64,000 nucleotides of DNA from Nocardiopsis listeri NBRC 13360 (lineage in GTDB: Bacteria; Actinomycetota; Actinomycetes; Streptosporangiales; Streptosporangiaceae). The stretch is from contig NZ_BCSH01000033.1 in NCBI RefSeq assembly GCF_001570765.1, forward strand, positions 1 to 64,000, written 5' to 3'. Within the stretch, counting starts at the first letter, position 1, and each line of letters starts with the position of its first letter. The position numbers and the translations under genes are program-made. Below the pieces are notes generated by a model. That model saw only the letters and a list, made by a program, of their open reading frames with translations, was not told the origin of the DNA and did no database searches. Positions 5,684 to 32,422 of the stretch are shown here, in pieces.

Positions 5684-6178
5684 TCAGCCGACGGCGTGCA
5701 GCCAGCGAACGGGCGCGCCGTCGCCGGCGTAACGGAAGGGTTCGAGTTCCTCGTCCCATGCCCGGCCGGTGAGTCGATCGAGTTCCGTGGCCAGGTCGCC
5801 GCCATCGACGGCGGCGGTCTCCATGGCCGCGCGCAGCCGGCCCTCGGGAACGAGGACCTCACCGGCGGCGCTGGTGACGGCGGTGAACACGCCGAGGGTG
5901 GGCGTGTAGCTGTAGCGGACGCCGTCACAACCCGGTGACGCGTCCTCGGTCACCTCGAAGCGCAGGCGCTGCCACGCGTTCAAGGCCGAGGCCACCGCCC
6001 CGGCGGTCCCCGGCCTTCCCTGCCAGTTCAGCTCGGCACGGTGGTTGCCGGGGGCTGCGGGTTGGGCGACCCAGTCGAGTTTCACGGGCACTCCAACGAC
6101 ACCCGCGACCGCCCACTCGACGTGTGGGCACAGCGCCGCGGGCGCGGAGTGGACGTACAAGACGCCACGTGCGGACAC
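5684..6178 (-). CDS. DUF3145 domain-containing protein
   Basis: A 164-residue protein matching DUF3145, a family almost universal in actinobacteria and of unknown function. It begins MSARGVLYVHSAPAALCPHV, then VEWAVAGVVGVPVKLDW, with the conserved RAELNWQG, LRFEVTEDAS, GVRYSYTPTLGVF and WDEELEPFRYAGD blocks. The GTG at 6178 has a perfect AGGAGG immediately upstream on the coding strand. It is divergent from the sigma factor at 6398 and shares a 219-bp relatively AT-rich intergenic region with it. No catalytic motif is evident. Confidence 0.93.
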   Translation of the reverse strand: MSARGVLYVHSAPAALCPHVEWAVAGVVGVPVKLDWVAQPAAPGNHRAELNWQGRPGTAGAVASALNAWQRLRFEVTEDASPGCDGVRYSYTPTLGVFTAVTSAAGEVLVPEGRLRAAMETAAVDGGDLATELDRLTGRAWDEELEPFRYAGDGAPVRWLHAVG

Positions 6179-6298
6179 CGAACCTCCTGATACGAACGAG
6201 TGCGCTTCCCCGACGCCCTCGTATCACGAGAAGGTTACATACCCGCTGCATGCCTTTTTCCCCATTGTGCCCTATCGGCACTCTGGAAACCATCTCGC

Positions 6299-6318
6299 AC
6301 ACTGGACTTTTCCAGTGT
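6299..6318. promoter_or_regulatory. 20-bp palindrome between DUF3145 and the sigma factor
   Basis: Perfect inverted repeat ACACTGGA-CTTT-TCCAGTGT lying 80 bases upstream of the sigma-factor start, in the most AT-rich part of the local intergenic region. It could be a repressor operator for the sigma/CHAT module or a short hairpin in a leader. No known regulator consensus is recognised. Confidence 0.45.
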
Positions 6319-6397: not shown

Positions 6398-7072
6398 GTG
6401 CCAGACCAGCCGCGCGAGCAGATCCACCGCGGTGATCCCCGCCGCAATAGGGCATGTTCGAGCACTTCAGGGGATGTATCCCCCACTTTCGAGCCGGTTC
6501 CGGCCACTTCCGGCCCCTCCCCTCGACCCGATGCCGAACTCGTGCTCGCCGCCTGTGGCGGCGACCCCGGTGCCTGGGCGGAGATCGTGGACCGCCACCT
6601 GCCCACCGTGAACCGCGTCGCCCGTTCCTACGGGTTGCCCCGCCAGGACCGGGAGGACGCGGTGCAGACCGTCTGGCTCAACCTCAACCAGCACCTGCCT
6701 CGCTTGCACCACCCCCATCTGCTCAGGGCCTGGTTGATCCGGGTGACCGGCGACGTGTGCGGCCGCCAACGCGACCGGTTGCGGAAGCTGGTGCCGGTCG
6801 ATCCGCACCGGCTGGTCGCGGAGTCCGGATCCGCCCTCGTTCCCGACGTCGAAGACGTGTACCTGCGCAAGGAACGCCATGCCGAGCTGTACCAGGCCAT
6901 CGACGCGCTGGGCCCGACCGACCGGCGGGTCGCCCGGCACTACCTGGACGACTCCCCCGGCGCCGTGCCCCTCTCCCACCGCACCACCGCCAACGAGCGA
7001 CGGAACCTACTGCGTCGGTTGCGCCGTTCCCTCGACACCACAGAACCGACGAAAGGCGTGCGTGATCCGTGA
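6398..7072 (+). CDS. ECF-like RNA polymerase sigma factor of a CHAT module
   Basis: A 224-residue sigma-70-family protein. After a disordered N-terminus of about 42 residues comes region 2 (about 45-130): DAELVLAACGGDPGAWAEIV, then LPRQDREDAVQTVWLNLNQH, then HLLRAWLIRVTGDVCGRQRD. A weak region 4 occupies about 158-212 (YQAIDALGPTDRRVARHYLD to ERRNLLRRLRRSL); the recognition helix-turn-helix is poorly conserved. Sigma factors direct core RNA polymerase to specific promoters. The GTG at 6398 is chosen because GGGAGCGG precedes it. Its stop overlaps the next start in a GTGA, so translation is coupled. No transmembrane anti-sigma gene adjoins; the next two genes probably control its activity (inference). 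Confidence 0.85.
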   Translation: MPDQPREQIHRGDPRRNRACSSTSGDVSPTFEPVPATSGPSPRPDAELVLAACGGDPGAWAEIVDRHLPTVNRVARSYGLPRQDREDAVQTVWLNLNQHLPRLHHPHLLRAWLIRVTGDVCGRQRDRLRKLVPVDPHRLVAESGSALVPDVEDVYLRKERHAELYQAIDALGPTDRRVARHYLDDSPGAVPLSHRTTANERRNLLRRLRRSLDTTEPTKGVRDP

Positions 7073-7461
7073 AAGACACAGAACCCGGCCGGGTTGCGGC
7101 GCTGGCCGCCTTCGACCGTTCACTCGACCGGGCCCGCACGGCCCCCACCATCGTCGACTCCACTCCCTCACTCGTCCCGTCCCGTTCCGAGGCCACCACG
7201 ACAACGCTGTGCTTCCACCTCGGTGACCTGCGGGTCGACCTGCGGCTGCGCGCGCACGGGGACCTGAGTTCGCTGTCGGGCCTGGTGATCGGCGACTTCG
7301 ACCACGTGGAGGTGTGCCTGCGCCGACCCGAGGAACACCTGCGTTTGTTCGTGCGGGGCGATGGCGCGTTCCACGCCGAAGGGCTCCGTCGGGGCCCCTT
7401 GGCCCTGACCATGGAGCGTCCGGACCGCCTCCCCGTGGTCACCGACTGGTTCACCATCTGA
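7069..7461 (+). CDS. Small beta-rich protein of the sigma/CHAT module
   Basis: A 130-residue protein that I cannot assign to a named family. The N-terminal 50 residues are polar and probably helical (AALAAFDRSLDRARTA) or disordered. From residue 45 on, the sequence alternates like a beta sandwich: TTTLCFHLGDLRVDLRLRA, then VIGDFDHVEVCLRRPEEHLR, ending PVVTDWFTI. From memory, similar small proteins with a TPWVTV-like end sit between a sigma factor and a CHAT gene in other actinomycetes. It is translationally coupled to the sigma gene by a 4-bp overlap. By position it is a candidate anti-sigma factor, adaptor or CHAT substrate; that is inference only. Confidence 0.7.
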   Translation: MKDTEPGRVAALAAFDRSLDRARTAPTIVDSTPSLVPSRSEATTTTLCFHLGDLRVDLRLRAHGDLSSLSGLVIGDFDHVEVCLRRPEEHLRLFVRGDGAFHAEGLRRGPLALTMERPDRLPVVTDWFTI

Positions 7462-7646
7462 ATAGGGCCGAACCGAAACAGGGTGTGTTCCCGCATCGAC
7501 GGCTCGTACTCGGCCATCCTTTGTCGGCATAGGTCCGGTTCGGTCCCACCTCGTTCGTCCACAGGTTGGCCGAGGGCACTCCCGCACGGCCCGAACCGCT
7601 GCTATCACTGGAGACGACCGGCCCCACTGGCGAAAGGCAGCCGGAC

Positions 7647-9572
7647 GTGTTGTCCCCCAGCGCGACCTCCGACACCACCACGACGACCACCGCCCGCCCC
7701 CTCCTGGCCAGAGTCGCCGACGGGGTCCGGCTGGCCCGGGACGGACGTTTCGAGGACACCGTCACCCTGTTGGAGGACATCCGAAGCCGACTACGGGGAC
7801 ACCCCGCCGCGGACCTGGCCCCGGTGTTGCCGGGGGTGCTCACCGACCTGGGACTGGCCCAGGCCCTGTGCGGTCGCTTCGGGCCGGCCAGGGACCACCT
7901 CCACGCGGCGCGCGACCTGGCCGAGGCCCGCGGACTGCCGCTGCTCGGCACGGTCGCCCGACAGAACCAGGGCTGTCTGGCCCTGTATCGCGGTGACGCG
8001 CCGGGCGCCATCGGGACCTTCCTCGAACTCCTGCCGCTGATACCGGCCGACCGGCAGGAGGCGCTGCGCGTGGATCTGGCCGAAGCCCTGCTCTGCGAAG
8101 GCCAGGTGGAGGAGGCCGGTCGCATCCTGGCCGAGGCGCCCTGGCGGGAGGGGCCGACCGACACCGCCCGCACCCTGTTGGAGGCCAAGCTGCGCCTGTT
8201 GGAGGGCGATCACAAGGCGGCGTTGGCCCTGTCCCTGAGGGTCCGGCGACACATCGGGCGCGGGTCGCCCTGGTACGGTCTGACCCACCGATTGGAGCGG
8301 CTCGCCGAGCGCACCCACCACGCCCGGCCCATCGAACGCGCCCGTGGGGCGTTGGAGGTGCGCTCGCCCTCCACCGCGACCCCGGTCACGAGCCCGCACG
8401 CCACCCGCGCGCTCGCGGCCCTCGCCGAACGCCTGCCCGCACCAGACCTCCATGTCCGACCACGGCCCGCGCCGCTGCCCGGCGCGTGGTTGGAGGACGG
8501 CTTCGGCGACCCTCACGTGATCCAGGCCGGGTTGGAGGGCGCGTTGGCGGTGGGCGACCCGGCGACCGCGTTGGAATGGGCGGAGCTGACCCGCGCGGAG
8601 GTCACACGCGAGACCGTGGTCACGGCGGCCGACACCGAGACCGACCTGACGGTGTCTCGTCGACGCGCGCCGCGCGGCCCGGTGTCGGGAAGGTTGTTCG
8701 AAACCCTGGGCGATCGGGCGTTCGTGCACTTCACCAGGGCGGGAGACCAGGCCGTCGCGCTGGTGGCGGTGGAGGGGCGGGTGCGTACCGCGTTCCTGGG
8801 CCCGTTGCCGCCCCTGCGTCGCCTCCTGGCCCGAATGCGGCACGAATGCGAGGCCGTGCCCGTCGACGGATCGCCCCCGGCCCTGAACGCAGTGGACGAG
8901 GCCCTGGTGGGGCCGGTGCTGCCGTTGACCGGTGGGCGTCCGCTCGTGGTCACCGGCGCCCCCTACCTGGACGATCCGCCCTGGGGACTGTTGCCGAGCC
9001 TGCGGGGTCGACCGGTCACGGTGGTCGTCGGGGCGCGGTCCTGGGCGCGGCGACGTCCCCCGAGGGGCGAGCGTGTGCTGTTGGCGGCGGCCTCCGAACC
9101 GGCCGGAGCGGGCCTGGAGGTCCGCGCACTCGCCGGTATCCACCCGGGCGCCCGGGTACTGGAACAGGCCCGACGGGAGCAGGTCCTGGCGGCGCTCACC
9201 ACCACCGACCTGGCCCACCTGGCCGGGCACGGACACCCCGGCGAACGTTCGGCGCTGTCGTCCCGGGTGGAACTGTCCGACGGCCCGCTGTCGGCCCGGG
9301 ACCTGTTGCGGGTACCCACTCCGGCCGCGCTGGTCACCCTGGCCACCTGTTCGGGCGGCCGGGGATTCCTCACCCGCTCACCGGGTGGCTTCGCGGCCAC
9401 CCTGCTGGCGCTCGGGACGCGCACCGTGGTCGCGAGCCCGTTGCCGGTCTCCGACGAACACACGGGTGCGGCCATGCGGCTGTTCCACCGCGCGTTGGCC
9501 GGTGGCGAAGACGTGTCCGAGGCGGTCGCCGACCACCTCGGACACGTGGGCTTTTGCTGCTACGTCGGCTGA
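7647..9572 (+). CDS. CHAT-domain protease with helical-repeat N-terminus
   Basis: A 641-residue protein. Residues about 15-230 are TPR-like helical repeats (ADGVRLARDGRFEDTVTLLE, ALCGRFGPARDHLHAARDLA, LLEAKLRLLEGDHKAALALS). Residues about 340-641 form a CHAT domain, a caspase-like peptidase fold. The catalytic pair is intact: His528 in DLAHLAGHGHPGER and Cys568 in LVTLATCSGG, forty residues apart as in family members. The GTG at 7647 is preferred because AAAGG lies about nine bases upstream; a TTG at 7566 would add 27 residues. It follows the beta-rich gene by 185 bases and ends one base from the convergent metallo-hydrolase. Role inferred: sensor protease that regulates the linked sigma factor. 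Confidence 0.9.
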   Translation: MLSPSATSDTTTTTTARPLLARVADGVRLARDGRFEDTVTLLEDIRSRLRGHPAADLAPVLPGVLTDLGLAQALCGRFGPARDHLHAARDLAEARGLPLLGTVARQNQGCLALYRGDAPGAIGTFLELLPLIPADRQEALRVDLAEALLCEGQVEEAGRILAEAPWREGPTDTARTLLEAKLRLLEGDHKAALALSLRVRRHIGRGSPWYGLTHRLERLAERTHHARPIERARGALEVRSPSTATPVTSPHATRALAALAERLPAPDLHVRPRPAPLPGAWLEDGFGDPHVIQAGLEGALAVGDPATALEWAELTRAEVTRETVVTAADTETDLTVSRRRAPRGPVSGRLFETLGDRAFVHFTRAGDQAVALVAVEGRVRTAFLGPLPPLRRLLARMRHECEAVPVDGSPPALNAVDEALVGPVLPLTGGRPLVVTGAPYLDDPPWGLLPSLRGRPVTVVVGARSWARRRPPRGERVLLAAASEPAGAGLEVRALAGIHPGARVLEQARREQVLAALTTTDLAHLAGHGHPGERSALSSRVELSDGPLSARDLLRVPTPAALVTLATCSGGRGFLTRSPGGFAATLLALGTRTVVASPLPVSDEHTGAAMRLFHRALAGGEDVSEAVADHLGHVGFCCYVG

Positions 9573-11374: not shown

Positions 11375-11971
11375 TCAGCGTCCCCGGGACGCCACGGACA
11401 AGGCGTCGGAGAAGTGCATCATCGCCTGCACCGCTTCGGCGCCGTCGGCCGCCTCGCTGACCCTCAGGGTGAGCGGTTCGGCGGTGATGGCACCGGTGTA
11501 GCCGTGGTCGAGCTCGCAGCTCTCGTCGGCGCAGGAGGCCGGTTCCAGGTCGATGTGGGCGACCGCGCTCCAGTTCACCGACAGGTTGACGCTGAGCACC
11601 AGCTCGCTGGGGGTGCTCCCCGCCGTGTACTGGGCCGGGTTGGGCACCACCCGGGTCAGCGCCACCGACTGGACGTTGCCCAACTGGATGCTGTCGGTCG
11701 TGGTGGAGGCGTGCGAGGCACCACCCGGCTCGGTCGGTGGGTGCTCGTCGGTGTGGCAGACCACCAGTCGGGTCTCGGTCAGCAGCATCACGGTGATGTG
11801 CCGACGCATCTCCATGGCGGGGTCGAAGGTCGCCTCGTGGTGCACGATGAACGCCTTGGCGTCCTCGTCGCCCAGGACGTCGGCGACCGCGTCGATGACC
11901 AGGGCGGGGTAGTATCCGCTCCGTTCGATCTCCAGGCGCCAGTCCGTGGGCACGGCACGTGTTTTCCTCAT
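11375..11971 (-). CDS. DUF5998 family protein
   Basis: A 198-residue protein matching the actinobacterial DUF5998 family of unknown function. Characteristic stretches are WRLEIERSGYYPALVIDAVA, then VVCHTDEHP, TRVVPNPAQYT, LVLSVNLSVNWSAVAHIDLE, and the cysteine-bearing ASCADESCELDHGYTG. The paired cysteines and the His in this last segment might bind metal (inference). It is soluble, with no signal or membrane segment. ATG at 11971 with GGATAGGGG upstream. It lies downstream of the large GNAT/CoA-ligase fusion on the same strand and ends at its own strong terminator. Confidence 0.87.
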   Translation of the reverse strand: MRKTRAVPTDWRLEIERSGYYPALVIDAVADVLGDEDAKAFIVHHEATFDPAMEMRRHITVMLLTETRLVVCHTDEHPPTEPGGASHASTTTDSIQLGNVQSVALTRVVPNPAQYTAGSTPSELVLSVNLSVNWSAVAHIDLEPASCADESCELDHGYTGAITAEPLTLRVSEAADGAEAVQAMMHFSDALSVASRGR

Positions 11972-12039
11972 ACCCCTATCCTGCCCCCTTCCGGTGACAC
12001 TTCGCGACCGTCGCCCGAAGAGAGCCGACCACTGGCGGA

Positions 12040-14760
12040 TCAGAACGTCACCCCGCGCAACCTCCGAGGCCCGGAGTCCGGGCGCACGTCGGGCGCCTCC
12101 CGCAACCACATGCGCGCGCCCAGGACGTGGGCGCCGGTGGCGTTGACGAGCACCGGGTCCAGGTCCACGTAACCGATCTCGGGGAAGGCCTCCACCAGGC
12201 GCGAGACCCGGATGAGGAGTTCCTCCAAGGCCTCCACGTTGGGCTGTTCGGCCAGCGAGGTCGCCCCCGCGGGCAGCCCGAACAGCAGCGGTGCGGCGCG
12301 AACCGCGTGGATGAGGTCGGCCGCGTCCATGTCGGTCAGCGGCGCCAACCGGAAGGCACGGTCGTCGAGGAGCTCCGCGGTGACGTCGGCCAGGCCGAAG
12401 GAGACCACCGACCCGAAGGACTGGTTGTCCCCGGCCCGGATCACCGTGGGCACCCCGGGCGCGGCCAGACGTTGGACCACCAGGTCGGCCTCGTCGCCGA
12501 AGCGGTCGTACAGCGACAGGTAGGCGCTGCGCACGTCCTCGGGGGTGCGCAGGTCGGCGCGGACGAACGTGCCACCGGCGCGGACCCGCAGGTCGGGGGC
12601 GTCGGCCTTGACCACCGCCGGGTAGCCCAGCTCACCGGCGGCGACCACGGCCTCCTCCGCCGAGTCCACCTTGATGTCGGGATAGGCGGCGATGCCGTAG
12701 CAGGACAGCAGCTCGTGCGCGTCCTCGCTGGAGATCGCCGTCTCCTCGTCGTAGCGACGCTCCCCGCCGAACCAGGCGATGTCGCCCTTCTCCGATCCGA
12801 CCTTCGACAGGGCCCGGGCGATGACGGTGCGGGCCCGGGCGCCGTCGAGGTCGGGCAGCTCGGGGTGCCGGCCGGGTTTGCGGTCCCGCCACTGGGCGTA
12901 GCGGGTCGCGTGGGCGAGGGCGCGTACGGCGTCCTCGGGCGCGGGGTAGGAGGGGACCGAACCGTGCAGGGTCTGCCCCTGATCCCCGACGTGCCTGAGC
13001 TCCTCGGGGATGCCCTGTCTGGCCAGATAGGTGGTGACGATCGGCTTGTCCGACTCCAGGGAGCGGGCGCGCAGCACCCGGGCCACGTCGTCGCCGATGG
13101 GGTGCAGGGCCGGGACGAAGACCACCACGACCGAGTGCACGTCGTCGTCGGCCATGGCCGCACCGAGTGCGTTGTCGAAGCCCTCGGCGGTGGCCTGCGG
13201 GCCCAGGTTCACGGGTTCGTGCGGTTTGAGTCCTTGGCGGACGGCGGCGTCCTTGACCAACAACTCCAGGGAGTCGGAGTTGCCGATGATGCCCACGCGC
13301 GGCCCCGCGGGCAGCGGCTGGTAGGCGAACACCTGGGCGGCGTCGAACATCTGGGTGATGTCGTCCACGCGCACCACCCCGGCCTGCTCGAAGAGGGAGG
13401 TGACGGCGTAGTCGGGCAGGGCCAGCCCACCGGCGGCGTGGCCGGTGGGCGTGGTCCGCGCCGAACCGCCACTGCGCACCGCCACGATCGGTTTCCGCTT
13501 GGCCAGGCGCCGGGCCAGGCGGGTGAACTTACGCGGGTTGCCCAGGGACTCCAGGTACTGCAGGACCACCTGGGTGGCCGGGTCCTCCTGCCAGTACTGC
13601 ATGAGGTCGTTGCCGGACACGTCGGCGCGGTTGCCCGCGGACACGAACGTGGACAGCCCCATGCCCCGGTCGGCGACCCGTTGCAGGATGGCGCGACCCA
13701 GCGCGCCGGACTGGGAGAAGAAGCCGATGGGGCCGGCCGGTGGCAGGTCCGGGGAGAGGGTGGCGTTGAGGGAGACCGACGCGTCGGTGTTGGCGACGCC
13801 CAGGCAGTTGGGGCCCACCACGCGCATGCCGGCGGCGCGGGCGGTGCGCACCAGCTCGTCCTGGCGGACGCGACCCTCCGGGCCGATCTCACCGAACCCG
13901 GAGCTGACCACGACGAGTCCGTGCACGCCCTTCTCCGCGCACTGTTCGACCACGTCCACGACCGTTTCGGCGCGCACCGCCACCACGGCCAGGTCGACCT
14001 GGTCGGGGATGTCCAGCACCGACGGGTAGGCGCGCACGCCCACCACGGCCCTGGCCTCGGGGTGCACCGGGTAGACGGGGCCTTGGAACTCACCGCCCAG
14101 GAGGTTGCGCAGGGCGGTCTGACCGATGGTGTGCGCGGTCCGGCTGGCACCGATGACGGCGACCGATTCCGGGAAGAGCAGACGGGCGATGGAACGCGAC
14201 TCGGAGCGCTGCTCGCGGGCCCGCATGACCTCTTGGGAGTCGTCGGTGGGTTGCAGGTCCAGCGTGAGCCGGATGACCCCTTCGTCGAAGGTCTGCTGGG
14301 CGGTGTACCCGGCCTCACGGAAGACGTTGATCATCCGTCGGTTCTCGGGCAGCACGTCGGCGATGAAACGCCGCACCCCGCGTTCGCGGGCGGCCGCTCC
14401 GATGTGTTCGAGCATGACCGAGGCCAGGCCACGGCCCTGGTGACCGTCCTCGACCACGAAGGCGACCTCGGCCTCCTCCGGGGCGACCTTGTCGTAACGC
14501 ACCACGGAGACCAGGGAGTCCGAGATCGTGGCGACCAGGGCCACGCGCTCCTCGTAGTCGACCGTGGTGAAACGTTCGACGTCGCGGTTGGACAGCTTGG
14601 GGTAGGGCGCGAAGAACCGGTAGTAGATCGTCTCCGGCGAGAGCCGGGCGTGGAACTCGCGCAGCAGGTCGGCGTCGTCAGCGGTGATGGGGCGCAGGTG
14701 CGCGGTGCCGCCGTCGGTCAGAACGACGTCGGCTTCCCAGTGTTTCGGGTAGGACTGCAC
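12040..14760 (-). CDS. GNAT acetyltransferase fused to ADP-forming acyl-CoA synthetase domain (Pat-like)
   Basis: A 906-residue fusion. Residues about 10-170 are a GNAT domain with the acetyl-CoA loop VVEDGHQGRGLASVMLEHIG. Residues about 195-650 are the CoA-binding and ligase part of an ADP-forming acyl-CoA synthetase (ARLLFPESVAVIGASRTAHT, VVGPNCLGVANTDASVSLNA, IGFFSQSGALGRAILQRVAD). The C-terminal 220 residues are ATP-grasp (YPAVVKADAPDLRVRAGGTF). This resembles the Pat family of protein lysine acetyltransferases that inactivate acyl-CoA synthetases, with the domain order reversed relative to Salmonella Pat. Whether the synthetase half is active is unclear; a candidate His lies in TPTGHAAGG. 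The GTG at 14760 has no ribosome site and may be leaderless. Confidence 0.9.
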   Translation of the reverse strand: MQSYPKHWEADVVLTDGGTAHLRPITADDADLLREFHARLSPETIYYRFFAPYPKLSNRDVERFTTVDYEERVALVATISDSLVSVVRYDKVAPEEAEVAFVVEDGHQGRGLASVMLEHIGAAARERGVRRFIADVLPENRRMINVFREAGYTAQQTFDEGVIRLTLDLQPTDDSQEVMRAREQRSESRSIARLLFPESVAVIGASRTAHTIGQTALRNLLGGEFQGPVYPVHPEARAVVGVRAYPSVLDIPDQVDLAVVAVRAETVVDVVEQCAEKGVHGLVVVSSGFGEIGPEGRVRQDELVRTARAAGMRVVGPNCLGVANTDASVSLNATLSPDLPPAGPIGFFSQSGALGRAILQRVADRGMGLSTFVSAGNRADVSGNDLMQYWQEDPATQVVLQYLESLGNPRKFTRLARRLAKRKPIVAVRSGGSARTTPTGHAAGGLALPDYAVTSLFEQAGVVRVDDITQMFDAAQVFAYQPLPAGPRVGIIGNSDSLELLVKDAAVRQGLKPHEPVNLGPQATAEGFDNALGAAMADDDVHSVVVVFVPALHPIGDDVARVLRARSLESDKPIVTTYLARQGIPEELRHVGDQGQTLHGSVPSYPAPEDAVRALAHATRYAQWRDRKPGRHPELPDLDGARARTVIARALSKVGSEKGDIAWFGGERRYDEETAISSEDAHELLSCYGIAAYPDIKVDSAEEAVVAAGELGYPAVVKADAPDLRVRAGGTFVRADLRTPEDVRSAYLSLYDRFGDEADLVVQRLAAPGVPTVIRAGDNQSFGSVVSFGLADVTAELLDDRAFRLAPLTDMDAADLIHAVRAAPLLFGLPAGATSLAEQPNVEALEELLIRVSRLVEAFPEIGYVDLDPVLVNATGAHVLGARMWLREAPDVRPDSGPRRLRGVTF

Positions 14761-14767
14761 GACTGCG

Positions 14768-14773
14768 AGACTA
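14768..14773 (-). promoter_or_regulatory. Possible -10 element for leaderless GNAT/CoA-ligase transcript
   Basis: On the coding strand a TAGTCT hexamer (TAnnnT pattern) ends seven bases before the GTG at 14760, and no purine-rich ribosome site occurs between them. This is the geometry of actinobacterial leaderless genes. No convincing -35 is seen. Confidence 0.35.
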
Positions 14774-15027
14774 GACGACAATCGGTCGGATACGGGGAGA
14801 GTCCCCGCCGTCCGGCCGAAATCACCACCCGTTCCTCCCGTCGTGCAAGCGCTTTCGGGACGGTGCGCGTCCGGGTCCACGTACCCTGATGCGGTGGGGC
14901 GAAAGACCCCGGCATCGCCTTGGTGACCGTGTGTCCGGGGTGCTGTCAGTTCGTTACCCGACCCTGATCGTTAAACTGTTAACGTCGTGCGGGCACAGGT
15001 TCTCAACACTCGGTGGTGGCTGGCGAA

Positions 15028-30784: not shown

Positions 30785-32422
30785 TCAGTCCAGGTAATCG
30801 CGGAGCACCTGCGAACGCGAGGGGTGACGGAGCTTCGACATCGTCTTGCTCTCGATCTGCCGGATGCGCTCACGGGTGACCCCGTAGACCTTGCCGATCT
30901 CGTCTAAAGTCTTGGGCTGGCCGTCGGTGAGCCCGAAGCGCATGGAGACCACACCGGCCTCGCGCTCGGACAGGGTGTCCAGTACCGAGTGCAGCTGCTC
31001 CTGGAGCAGGGTGAAGCTGACGGCCTCACCCGGCTGGATCGCCTCGGAGTCCTCGATGAGGTCACCGAACTCGCTGTCGCCGTCCTCGCCCAGCGGGGTG
31101 TGCAGGGAGATCGGCTCGCGACCGTACTTCTGCACCTCGACGACCTTCTCCGGGGTCATGTCGAGTTCCTTGGCCAGCTCCTCCGGGGTGGGCTCACGGC
31201 CCAGGTCCTGGAGCATCTGACGCTGTACGCGGGCCAGCTTGTTGATGACCTCGACCATGTGCACCGGGATACGGATGGTGCGGGCCTGGTCGGCCATCGC
31301 GCGGGTGATCGCCTGACGGATCCACCAGGTGGCGTACGTGGAGAACTTGAAACCCTTGGTGTAGTCGAACTTCTCCACCGCGCGGATCAGACCGAGGTTG
31401 CCCTCCTGGATCAGGTCAAGGAACAGCATGCCGCGACCCGTGTAGCGCTTGGCCAGGGAGACCACCAGACGCAGGTTCGCCTCGAGCAGGTGCTTCTTGG
31501 CGCGGCCTCCGTCCTCGGAGATCCACTCGAGCTCGTCGCGAAGCTCGAAGGTGAGGACGTCGTCCTCCTCGGAGAGCTTCTCCTCGGCGAACAGGCCGGC
31601 CTCGATGCGCTTGGCGAGCTCGACCTCCTGCTCTGCGTTGAGCAGCGGCACCTTACCGATCTGCTTCAGGTAGTCCTTGACCGGGTCCGCGGTGGCACCG
31701 GCCGCGACCACCTGGGCGGCGGGGGCGTCGTCGTCATCGTCGTACAGGACGAAGGAATCGTCGTCCTTACCGGACTTGACCGGGGCGCCGACCGTCTCCG
31801 GCTTGGCCGGCTTGACGGATTCGGTGTCGGGGGTGTCCTCGACCAGCTCCAGCTCGGCGCCGGTGTGCTCGAGGTCGTCGTCCAGACCATCGTCGGCCGT
31901 GTCGCCGGCGTCGGGCGCCAGCTCCAGGTCCTTCTTGGTGGACTTCTTGGTCGCCGCCTTCTTGGCCGGGGCCTTGGCCGCCGCGGGCTTCTTGGCGGCC
32001 GCCTTCTTGGGGGTGGCCGCCTTCTTCGCGGGGGCCTTCTTGGCCGCGGGCTTCTTCTCGGCGGTCTCCTCGGAGTCGACGACGGCGGTGACCGTCTCCG
32101 GCTGCTTTTGGGCGGCCGCCGCGGCGCGCGCGGGCTTGGTGGTCGAGCGGGTGGTGCTGGACCGAGACGTGGTGGTCTTACGCCGCGTGGTCTTGCGCCG
32201 GGAGGAGGCCGACTCCGGGACCAGTACGGTCACGCCCTCCTTCGCGAGGCTGCGGAGCACCGACTGCGCCTGCGACATCGGGATTTCGGCCTCTTCGAAG
32301 GCACGGCGCACGTCCTCGGGCTCAAGAAAGCCCTGGGACCGCCCACGCTCGATCAGCTGCTGAATGACGGGCTCTTGCAGTGACTCGGACTGCTTCGAGC
32401 GAGTCGAACTGGCAGATGACAC
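30785..32422 (-). CDS. hrdB: Principal RNA polymerase sigma factor (HrdB/SigA)
   Basis: A 545-residue group 1 sigma factor. Residues about 90-180 are a lysine/alanine-rich low-complexity stretch (repeated KKAAAKK-type units), as in actinobacterial HrdB. Then follow region 1.2 ([20 protein letters not shown]), region 2 with [20 protein letters not shown], region 3, and region 4 with [15 protein letters not shown] and the helix-turn-helix [20 protein letters not shown]. It directs housekeeping transcription. The GTG at 32422 follows GAGAGGTG. It lies 193 bases downstream of the PP2C gene on the same strand, and that gap should hold its own promoter. Confidence 0.96.

Follow-up and report, generated by a model that had tools for sequence, protein, structure and literature searches.

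A Nocardiopsis locus encoding a σ factor, a small β-sandwich protein and a TPR-like CHAT protease as the local form of an actinobacterial system

Overview

In the 64,000-nucleotide window analysed here, which opens contig NZ_BCSH01000033.1 of Nocardiopsis listeri NBRC 13360, three consecutive genes on the + strand (6398-9572) encode a protein related to extracytoplasmic function (ECF) σ factors, a small β-rich protein and a cysteine protease of the CHAT type with a tetratricopeptide repeat (TPR)-like half. Judged by homology and synteny, this locus is the local form of an actinobacterial system composed of a σ factor, a small β-sandwich protein and a TPR-CHAT protease, and it is almost certainly part of a real conserved system. 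The set extends beyond Nocardiopsis and is not entirely new, and in many other lineages it also includes a subtilase. The original prediction, made from the DNA alone, placed the three genes correctly and read them as a candidate switch in which the protease frees the σ factor; the subtilase was invisible to it because the gene is missing at the Nocardiopsis locus.

Conservation and co-occurrence across Actinomycetota

With a broadened profile, the small protein is found in at least 124 of 393 genomes in a sample of the class and in at least 16 of 198 in a sample of the phylum, some genomes belonging to both; these counts are lower bounds, since the search scores about 10-20 candidates per genome. 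Among the 393 sampled genomes, CHAT is present in 123 of the 124 that have the small protein, compared with 88 of the 269 that do not. Linkage was counted around 108 small-protein matches on long stretches hand-picked to spread over families (matches rather than genomes, as some genomes give two or three): a σ gene lies less than 1.5 kb upstream on the same strand in 103, and the stretch contains a CHAT gene in 87 and a subtilase gene in 64. This count leaves out locus L034, a copy of the L072 locus, and two further loci, L037 and L099, have no small-protein match. Nineteen of the 108 matches come from stretches selected through σ similarity; once these are excluded, σ accompanies the small protein in 84 of 89 cases and CHAT is in the fetched stretch in 70 of 89. 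Within the 20 stretches chosen by σ similarity, the small protein stands beside σ in 19 and CHAT is found in 17. Three weak short loci (L061, L062 and L064; E 5e-4 to 3e-3) have no σ gene within 1.5 kb. Conservation in related actinomycetes, as the original prediction had put forward, is supported by both co-occurrence and linkage.

For the 21 small-protein matches with no CHAT gene in the stretch, 15 genomes were searched for the protease and all 15 contain it; in G187 its distance from the σ/small pair is about 7 kb, which puts it just beyond the stretch. Nine of these CHAT genes, one per genome with the pair apart, were placed: eight stand next to a module-type subtilase in divergent orientation, one case being truncated where its contig ends, and the remaining gene belongs to a second, tandem σ-small-CHAT-subtilase set. 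Because the CHAT genes of such genomes adjoin a subtilase, the system looks like four parts that can travel as two pairs, σ with the small protein and CHAT with the subtilase.

The gene order is σ-small-CHAT-subtilase at L238 (genome G632) and σ-small-subtilase-CHAT at L226, and two Dactylosporangium loci (L224 and L225) read subtilase-small-CHAT, with no σ recognised in the fetched stretch. Six genomes (G376, G430, G217, G474, G522 and G572) give three or four small-protein matches each, several with CHAT and subtilase neighbours of their own, a pattern that would fit diversification of the system inside single genomes. When their sequences are read by eye, the module subtilases look intracellular.

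The Nocardiopsis form of the set

Within the genus, 36 of 37 genomes carry the small protein, the sole miss being an assembly of 85% completeness, and σ, the small protein and CHAT keep identical order and strand at all 35 of the other loci. The compact three-gene unit first proposed therefore holds for order and strand but not for tight coupling of CHAT, since a gap of 185 bases separates the protease gene from the small gene when the likelier start of CHAT is used. Whole-gene ratios of nonsynonymous to synonymous substitution rates (dN/dS), taken against three related strains, are 0.33-0.45 for σ, 0.07-0.51 for the small protein and 0.22-0.32 for CHAT. In the tree, from which L203 was left out and in which L032 and L181 sit on long branches, Nocardiopsis and its sister genera form one clade with long stem branches, a diverged σ region 4 and no subtilase alongside. 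No subtilase is found among the nine Pfam-scanned proteins of the window between 2958 and 11372. The genome contains four S8 genes, two of which match the module-subtilase profile at 81.5 and 67.1 bits; the 64 subtilases of module loci, some of which trained this profile, score 110-549 bits on it.

The σ factor passes the cut-off of Pfam Sigma70_r2 (33.6 bits, cut-off 24), and the NCBIfam superfamily model TIGR02937 matches its residues 59-183 above cut-off (45.4 bits against 42.9), so its general kinship with the superfamily is not in doubt. From the standpoint of the ECF architecture, region 2 is present, while a region 4 with a helix-turn-helix is lacking. No Pfam region-4 family matches the window protein, the canonical region-4 motif occurs in 0 of 53 Nocardiopsis-type σ sequences, and the first helix of the region-4 helix-turn-helix is gone both in the alignment with relatives and in the AlphaFold2 model, whose confidence is lower over the region-4 remnant (block means 67-91; predicted template modelling score, pTM, 0.47 for the whole model). 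The earlier description of an ECF-like σ factor is accordingly right for region 2 and wrong for a normal region 4. Sequence and model suggest that some of the DNA-binding apparatus is gone from the Nocardiopsis σ, and an ordinary σ factor at this locus is doubtful. Region 2 retains the fold that binds the -10 element, and in the comparison with the three related strains its dN/dS is 0.17-0.28, versus 0.37-0.47 for the C-terminal residues 132-224. Used as a query against its own genome, the window σ has a single match at E 1e-5, namely itself, so there is no obvious second σ factor to be mimicked. Opinion on whether the protein still drives transcription is evenly balanced. Some relatives' σ proteins are annotated from a position equivalent to GTG 6386.

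The gene for the small protein overlaps that of σ by the four bases GTGA (7069-7072), as had been noted at the outset, and the nearest start yields a 4-bp overlap at 60 of the 104 σ/small junctions that could be measured. The AlphaFold2 model, made up of one helix and an eight-stranded β domain, agrees with the β-rich character first attributed to the protein. Searches of Pfam, NCBIfam and PADLOC with E values up to 1 found nothing for it, and neither did a sequence search of the PDB (E 1) or a Foldseek search (E 0.001), Csx30 not having been compared directly. Its closest named relatives are from Nocardiopsis, where several homologues carry the database name 'carboxypeptidase regulatory-like domain-containing protein'. 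PF13620 gives sub-threshold matches (E 0.013 and 0.017) to two of five small proteins of fetched loci and none to two Nocardiopsis small proteins or to that of the window. That σ and the small protein bind each other is fairly probable.

The window's CHAT protein scores 67.2 bits with PF12770, whose cut-off is 24, and has the His/Cys pair of a CHAT peptidase. Of the 121 aligned rows, among which are the query and its copy in the database, all 121 have both catalytic residues. The intact His528 and Cys568 of the original prediction are correct for the 641-aa product. The longest frame starts at TTG 7566 and would give 668 aa; a 641-aa database entry is identical over its length, so the start is taken as GTG 7647. 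Of 37 entries (36 distinct loci), 11-19 share short strings with the stretch between the two starts, which is suggestive at most. As for the TPR-like half, which was also part of that prediction, the window's own TPR matches are weak (Pfam, E 0.38 and 0.56), but the counterpart of CHAT in L211, a strain of a sister genus, scores above cut-off with three TPR families of Pfam, and a profile from nine relatives matches solved TPR structures. The features of the locus are collected in Table 1.

Table 1. Coordinates of the three genes and their parts in the window
Feature	Position	Strand	Details
σ gene	6398..7072	+	224 aa, GTG start; Sigma70_r2 match, homologues
σ region 2	6527..6790	+	Residues 44-131, intact
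Region-4 remnant	6848..7039	+	Residues 151-214; helices 151-169, 173-183 and 198-214; AlphaFold2 model and alignment with relatives
Loop replacing the first helix of the region-4 helix-turn-helix	6947..6988	+	Residues 184-197; alignment and AlphaFold2 model
Small β-rich partner protein	7069..7461	+	130 aa; 4-bp overlap with the σ gene
N-terminal helix of the small protein, conserved GRxAALAAFDRSxD	7084..7122	+	AlphaFold2
β-sandwich domain of the small protein	7198..7458	+	AlphaFold2, 10-residue block means 80-93; Ig-like folds
TPR-like CHAT cysteine protease	7647..9572	+	641 aa from GTG 7647; upstream TTG 7566 would give 668 aa
Catalytic His	9228..9230	+	His528 (641 numbering), His555 (668 numbering); 121/121 rows
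Catalytic Cys	9348..9350	+	Cys568 (641 numbering), Cys595 (668 numbering); 121/121 rows

Comparison with known systems

The neighbourhood matches one already in print, that of the ECF54 σ factors, for which PMC8999054, citing Huang 2015 and Casas-Pastor 2021, reports that proteolytic control without an anti-σ factor was proposed on the basis of conserved carboxypeptidase, subtilase and CHAT neighbours. The initial impression that the function is undescribed consequently holds for the mechanism, of which no worked-out account was found in the open-licence literature, but not for the neighbourhood. The canonical relatives fit the description of ECF54, that of actinobacterial ECF-type σ factors with carboxypeptidase-type, subtilase and CHAT proteins nearby; this likeness is by neighbourhood description and not by the group's profile or its listed model SFT86700.1. 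The Nocardiopsis form, in contrast, has neither an adjoining subtilase nor a canonical region 4. In the present set, the ECF54 'carboxypeptidase' looks like, and probably is, a non-enzymatic β-sandwich coupled to σ, which makes the small protein a candidate anti-σ factor or adaptor. This reading of the 'carboxypeptidase' is new here, as is the Nocardiopsis clade with its diverged region 4 and no subtilase alongside.

In the type III-E systems of clustered regularly interspaced short palindromic repeats (CRISPR), known as CASP or Craspase, the TPR-CHAT protease Csx29 is described in the relevant sections of PMC10028731 as cutting Csx30, an inhibitor of the σ factor CASP-σ, and not the σ factor. 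Common to both cases are a TPR-CHAT protease with a His/Cys pair, a σ factor and a third protein, whereas at the Nocardiopsis locus no RNA-guided trigger is in sight and the third protein has 130 aa. The window holds no CRISPR-like repeat array anywhere, and none of its nine Pfam-scanned proteins matches a Cas family, Cas7-11 not having been searched in the remaining window or the genome, in agreement with the early remark that no CRISPR component is nearby. The comparison offers a mechanism to set beside this one, and not a demonstrated kinship.

The reduced σ factor also recalls SigO-RsoA of Bacillus subtilis, in which regions 2 and 4 are split between two proteins (according to the section of PMC8103513 that covers it; the corresponding section of PMC10141391 assigns the split domains the opposite way). 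As in that case, the Nocardiopsis polypeptide has a region 2 and no working region 4; in SigO-RsoA, a second polypeptide contributes region 4. PhyR, in turn, carries a σ-like domain in a protein that is not a σ factor (PMC8103513, same section). It differs in having a response-regulator domain and a different partner; no such domain is among the Pfam matches of the window σ.

Proposed mechanism and alternatives

Given the linkage, the co-occurrence, the σ/small coupling and the intact catalytic pair, a protease-σ system is likely, and CHAT-triggered release of σ would be a plausible mechanism. In the reading preferred here, σ and the small protein would be co-made through translational coupling and would bind each other, the small protein serving as a soluble anti-σ factor or an adaptor. 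CHAT, gated by its helical repeats, would sense a signal and then cut or free the σ/small complex, and so alter the output of RNA polymerase; the ancestral subtilase may have acted as a second proteolytic step or as an effector. In Nocardiopsis, where the subtilase is gone and region 4 is without its helix-turn-helix, the surviving switch would act through region 2, by core binding and -10 recognition, and promoter choice would need another factor or an extended -10 element. With a reduced σ factor and no adjoining second protease, the Nocardiopsis switch probably works differently from that of its relatives. Taken as a whole, this mechanism is possible, if somewhat short of probable; the step in which CHAT cleaves σ or the small protein is more tentative still. 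The strongest version, a CRISPR-independent, TPR-gated CHAT switch whose target is a region-2-only σ factor held by an anti-σ factor of a new, β-sandwich type, is unlikely.

Several observations weigh against the preferred mechanism. Against the closest strain, the CHAT domain shows no stronger conservation than the remaining parts of the protein (dN/dS 0.49, compared with 0.12 and 0.22). The co-occurrence count of the small protein and CHAT, together with its Fisher value, ignores shared ancestry, and one genome (G124) has the σ/small pair with no CHAT match. In some clades CHAT lies elsewhere or on the other strand, and it has an intergenic gap of its own, so it need not act on the σ/small pair. 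The small protein matches no known anti-σ family in Pfam or NCBIfam, though it may represent a new anti-σ fold, and the structures that it resembles are Ig-like sandwiches of a generic kind. Finally, a region 4 that lacks the canonical motif and one helix argues against an ordinary σ factor.

Other uses of the same genes can be envisaged. CHAT, and the subtilase where present, might keep σ low by degradation, with the small protein as the delivering adaptor and a signal that stops the process; caspase-like proteases usually cut specifically and seldom degrade, which counts against such a role. The σ/small coupling and the co-occurrence of the small protein with CHAT would suit it, and proteolytic control is what PMC8999054 reports as proposed for ECF54; against it, Csx29, the closest worked-out case of a TPR-CHAT protease acting on a σ system, cuts the inhibitor instead of σ (PMC10028731, in the sections mentioned). 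We regard it as unlikely. In several clades CHAT is detached from the pair or read from the other strand, as regulon members may be, which would also be in keeping with a scheme in which σ, with the small protein as its anti-σ factor, switches on the CHAT and subtilase genes, the proteases acting on unrelated targets, for example in suicide or defence, without any proteolysis to free σ. Of the proteins of relatives, all three module subtilases score with PADLOC's 'subtilase' model (E 3e-6 to 9e-17) and one of two CHAT proteins with BovA (E 3e-8), hits that may reflect general family likeness; the best PADLOC match of the window's three proteins has an E of 0.12, and no shared promoter motif was established. 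This scheme too seems improbable.

It could be, moreover, that the Nocardiopsis σ is a transcription factor no more, and that its region 2 persists as a mimic or scaffold with the small protein or core polymerase as binding partner, in a manner comparable in principle to the σ-like domain of PhyR. The loss of the region-4 motif and of one helix, with region 2 under stronger constraint than the C-terminal part, and the long stem branches of the Nocardiopsis-type clade all point in this direction, but region 2 retains its -10-binding fold and the genome search returned the window σ alone. With SigO-RsoA and PhyR as precedents in principle, the mimic is kept as an alternative of the same low probability as the degradation and regulon schemes.

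Neighbouring genes and other features of the window

DUF3145, a protein of about 200 aa and a large GNAT/CoA-ligase-like protein (5684-6178 and 11375-14880) recur beside the set in relatives. Since the ~200-aa and the GNAT/CoA-ligase-like neighbours recur even beside σ/small pairs that have no CHAT, the position of the locus is old. The DUF3145 gene lies on the - strand (5684-6178) and is preceded by a leader on the same strand (6164-6300) that 34 of 35 distinct Nocardiopsis loci keep almost unchanged, with a hairpin just before the ribosome-binding site that is kept in other genera. None of 200 shuffles folds as well as the leader strand (z -4.1), and the hairpin alignment of 33 sequences has 12 consensus pairs, one of them changed on both sides. 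No Rfam match at E 1 overlaps the leader, which is possibly a new cis-regulatory RNA, the covariation being too thin for a claim. Elsewhere in the window, at positions 31934-32073, a 62-nt direct repeat occurs six times, the copies overlapping at a spacing of 15-18 nt; the stretch is apparently of low complexity and inside an open frame.

Biological significance

Actinobacteria commonly encode CHAT proteases (211 of the 393 sampled genomes), and to our knowledge neither trigger nor substrate is known for most of them. A four-gene set whose members go together across the phylum, even in genomes that divide it between two loci, points to both of the likely substrates and to a likely further protease. 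Its Nocardiopsis form is a natural experiment, a switch without the subtilase and with a reduced σ factor, and would reveal the irreducible core of the system. The ECF54 factors, listed without an anti-σ factor in the passages of PMC8999054 that treat them, may have one behind a misleading 'carboxypeptidase' name. If a CRISPR-independent switch of this kind were true, protease-released σ factors would be an old and general actinobacterial design, and an ECF σ factor could lose its region 4 and yet stay under selection.

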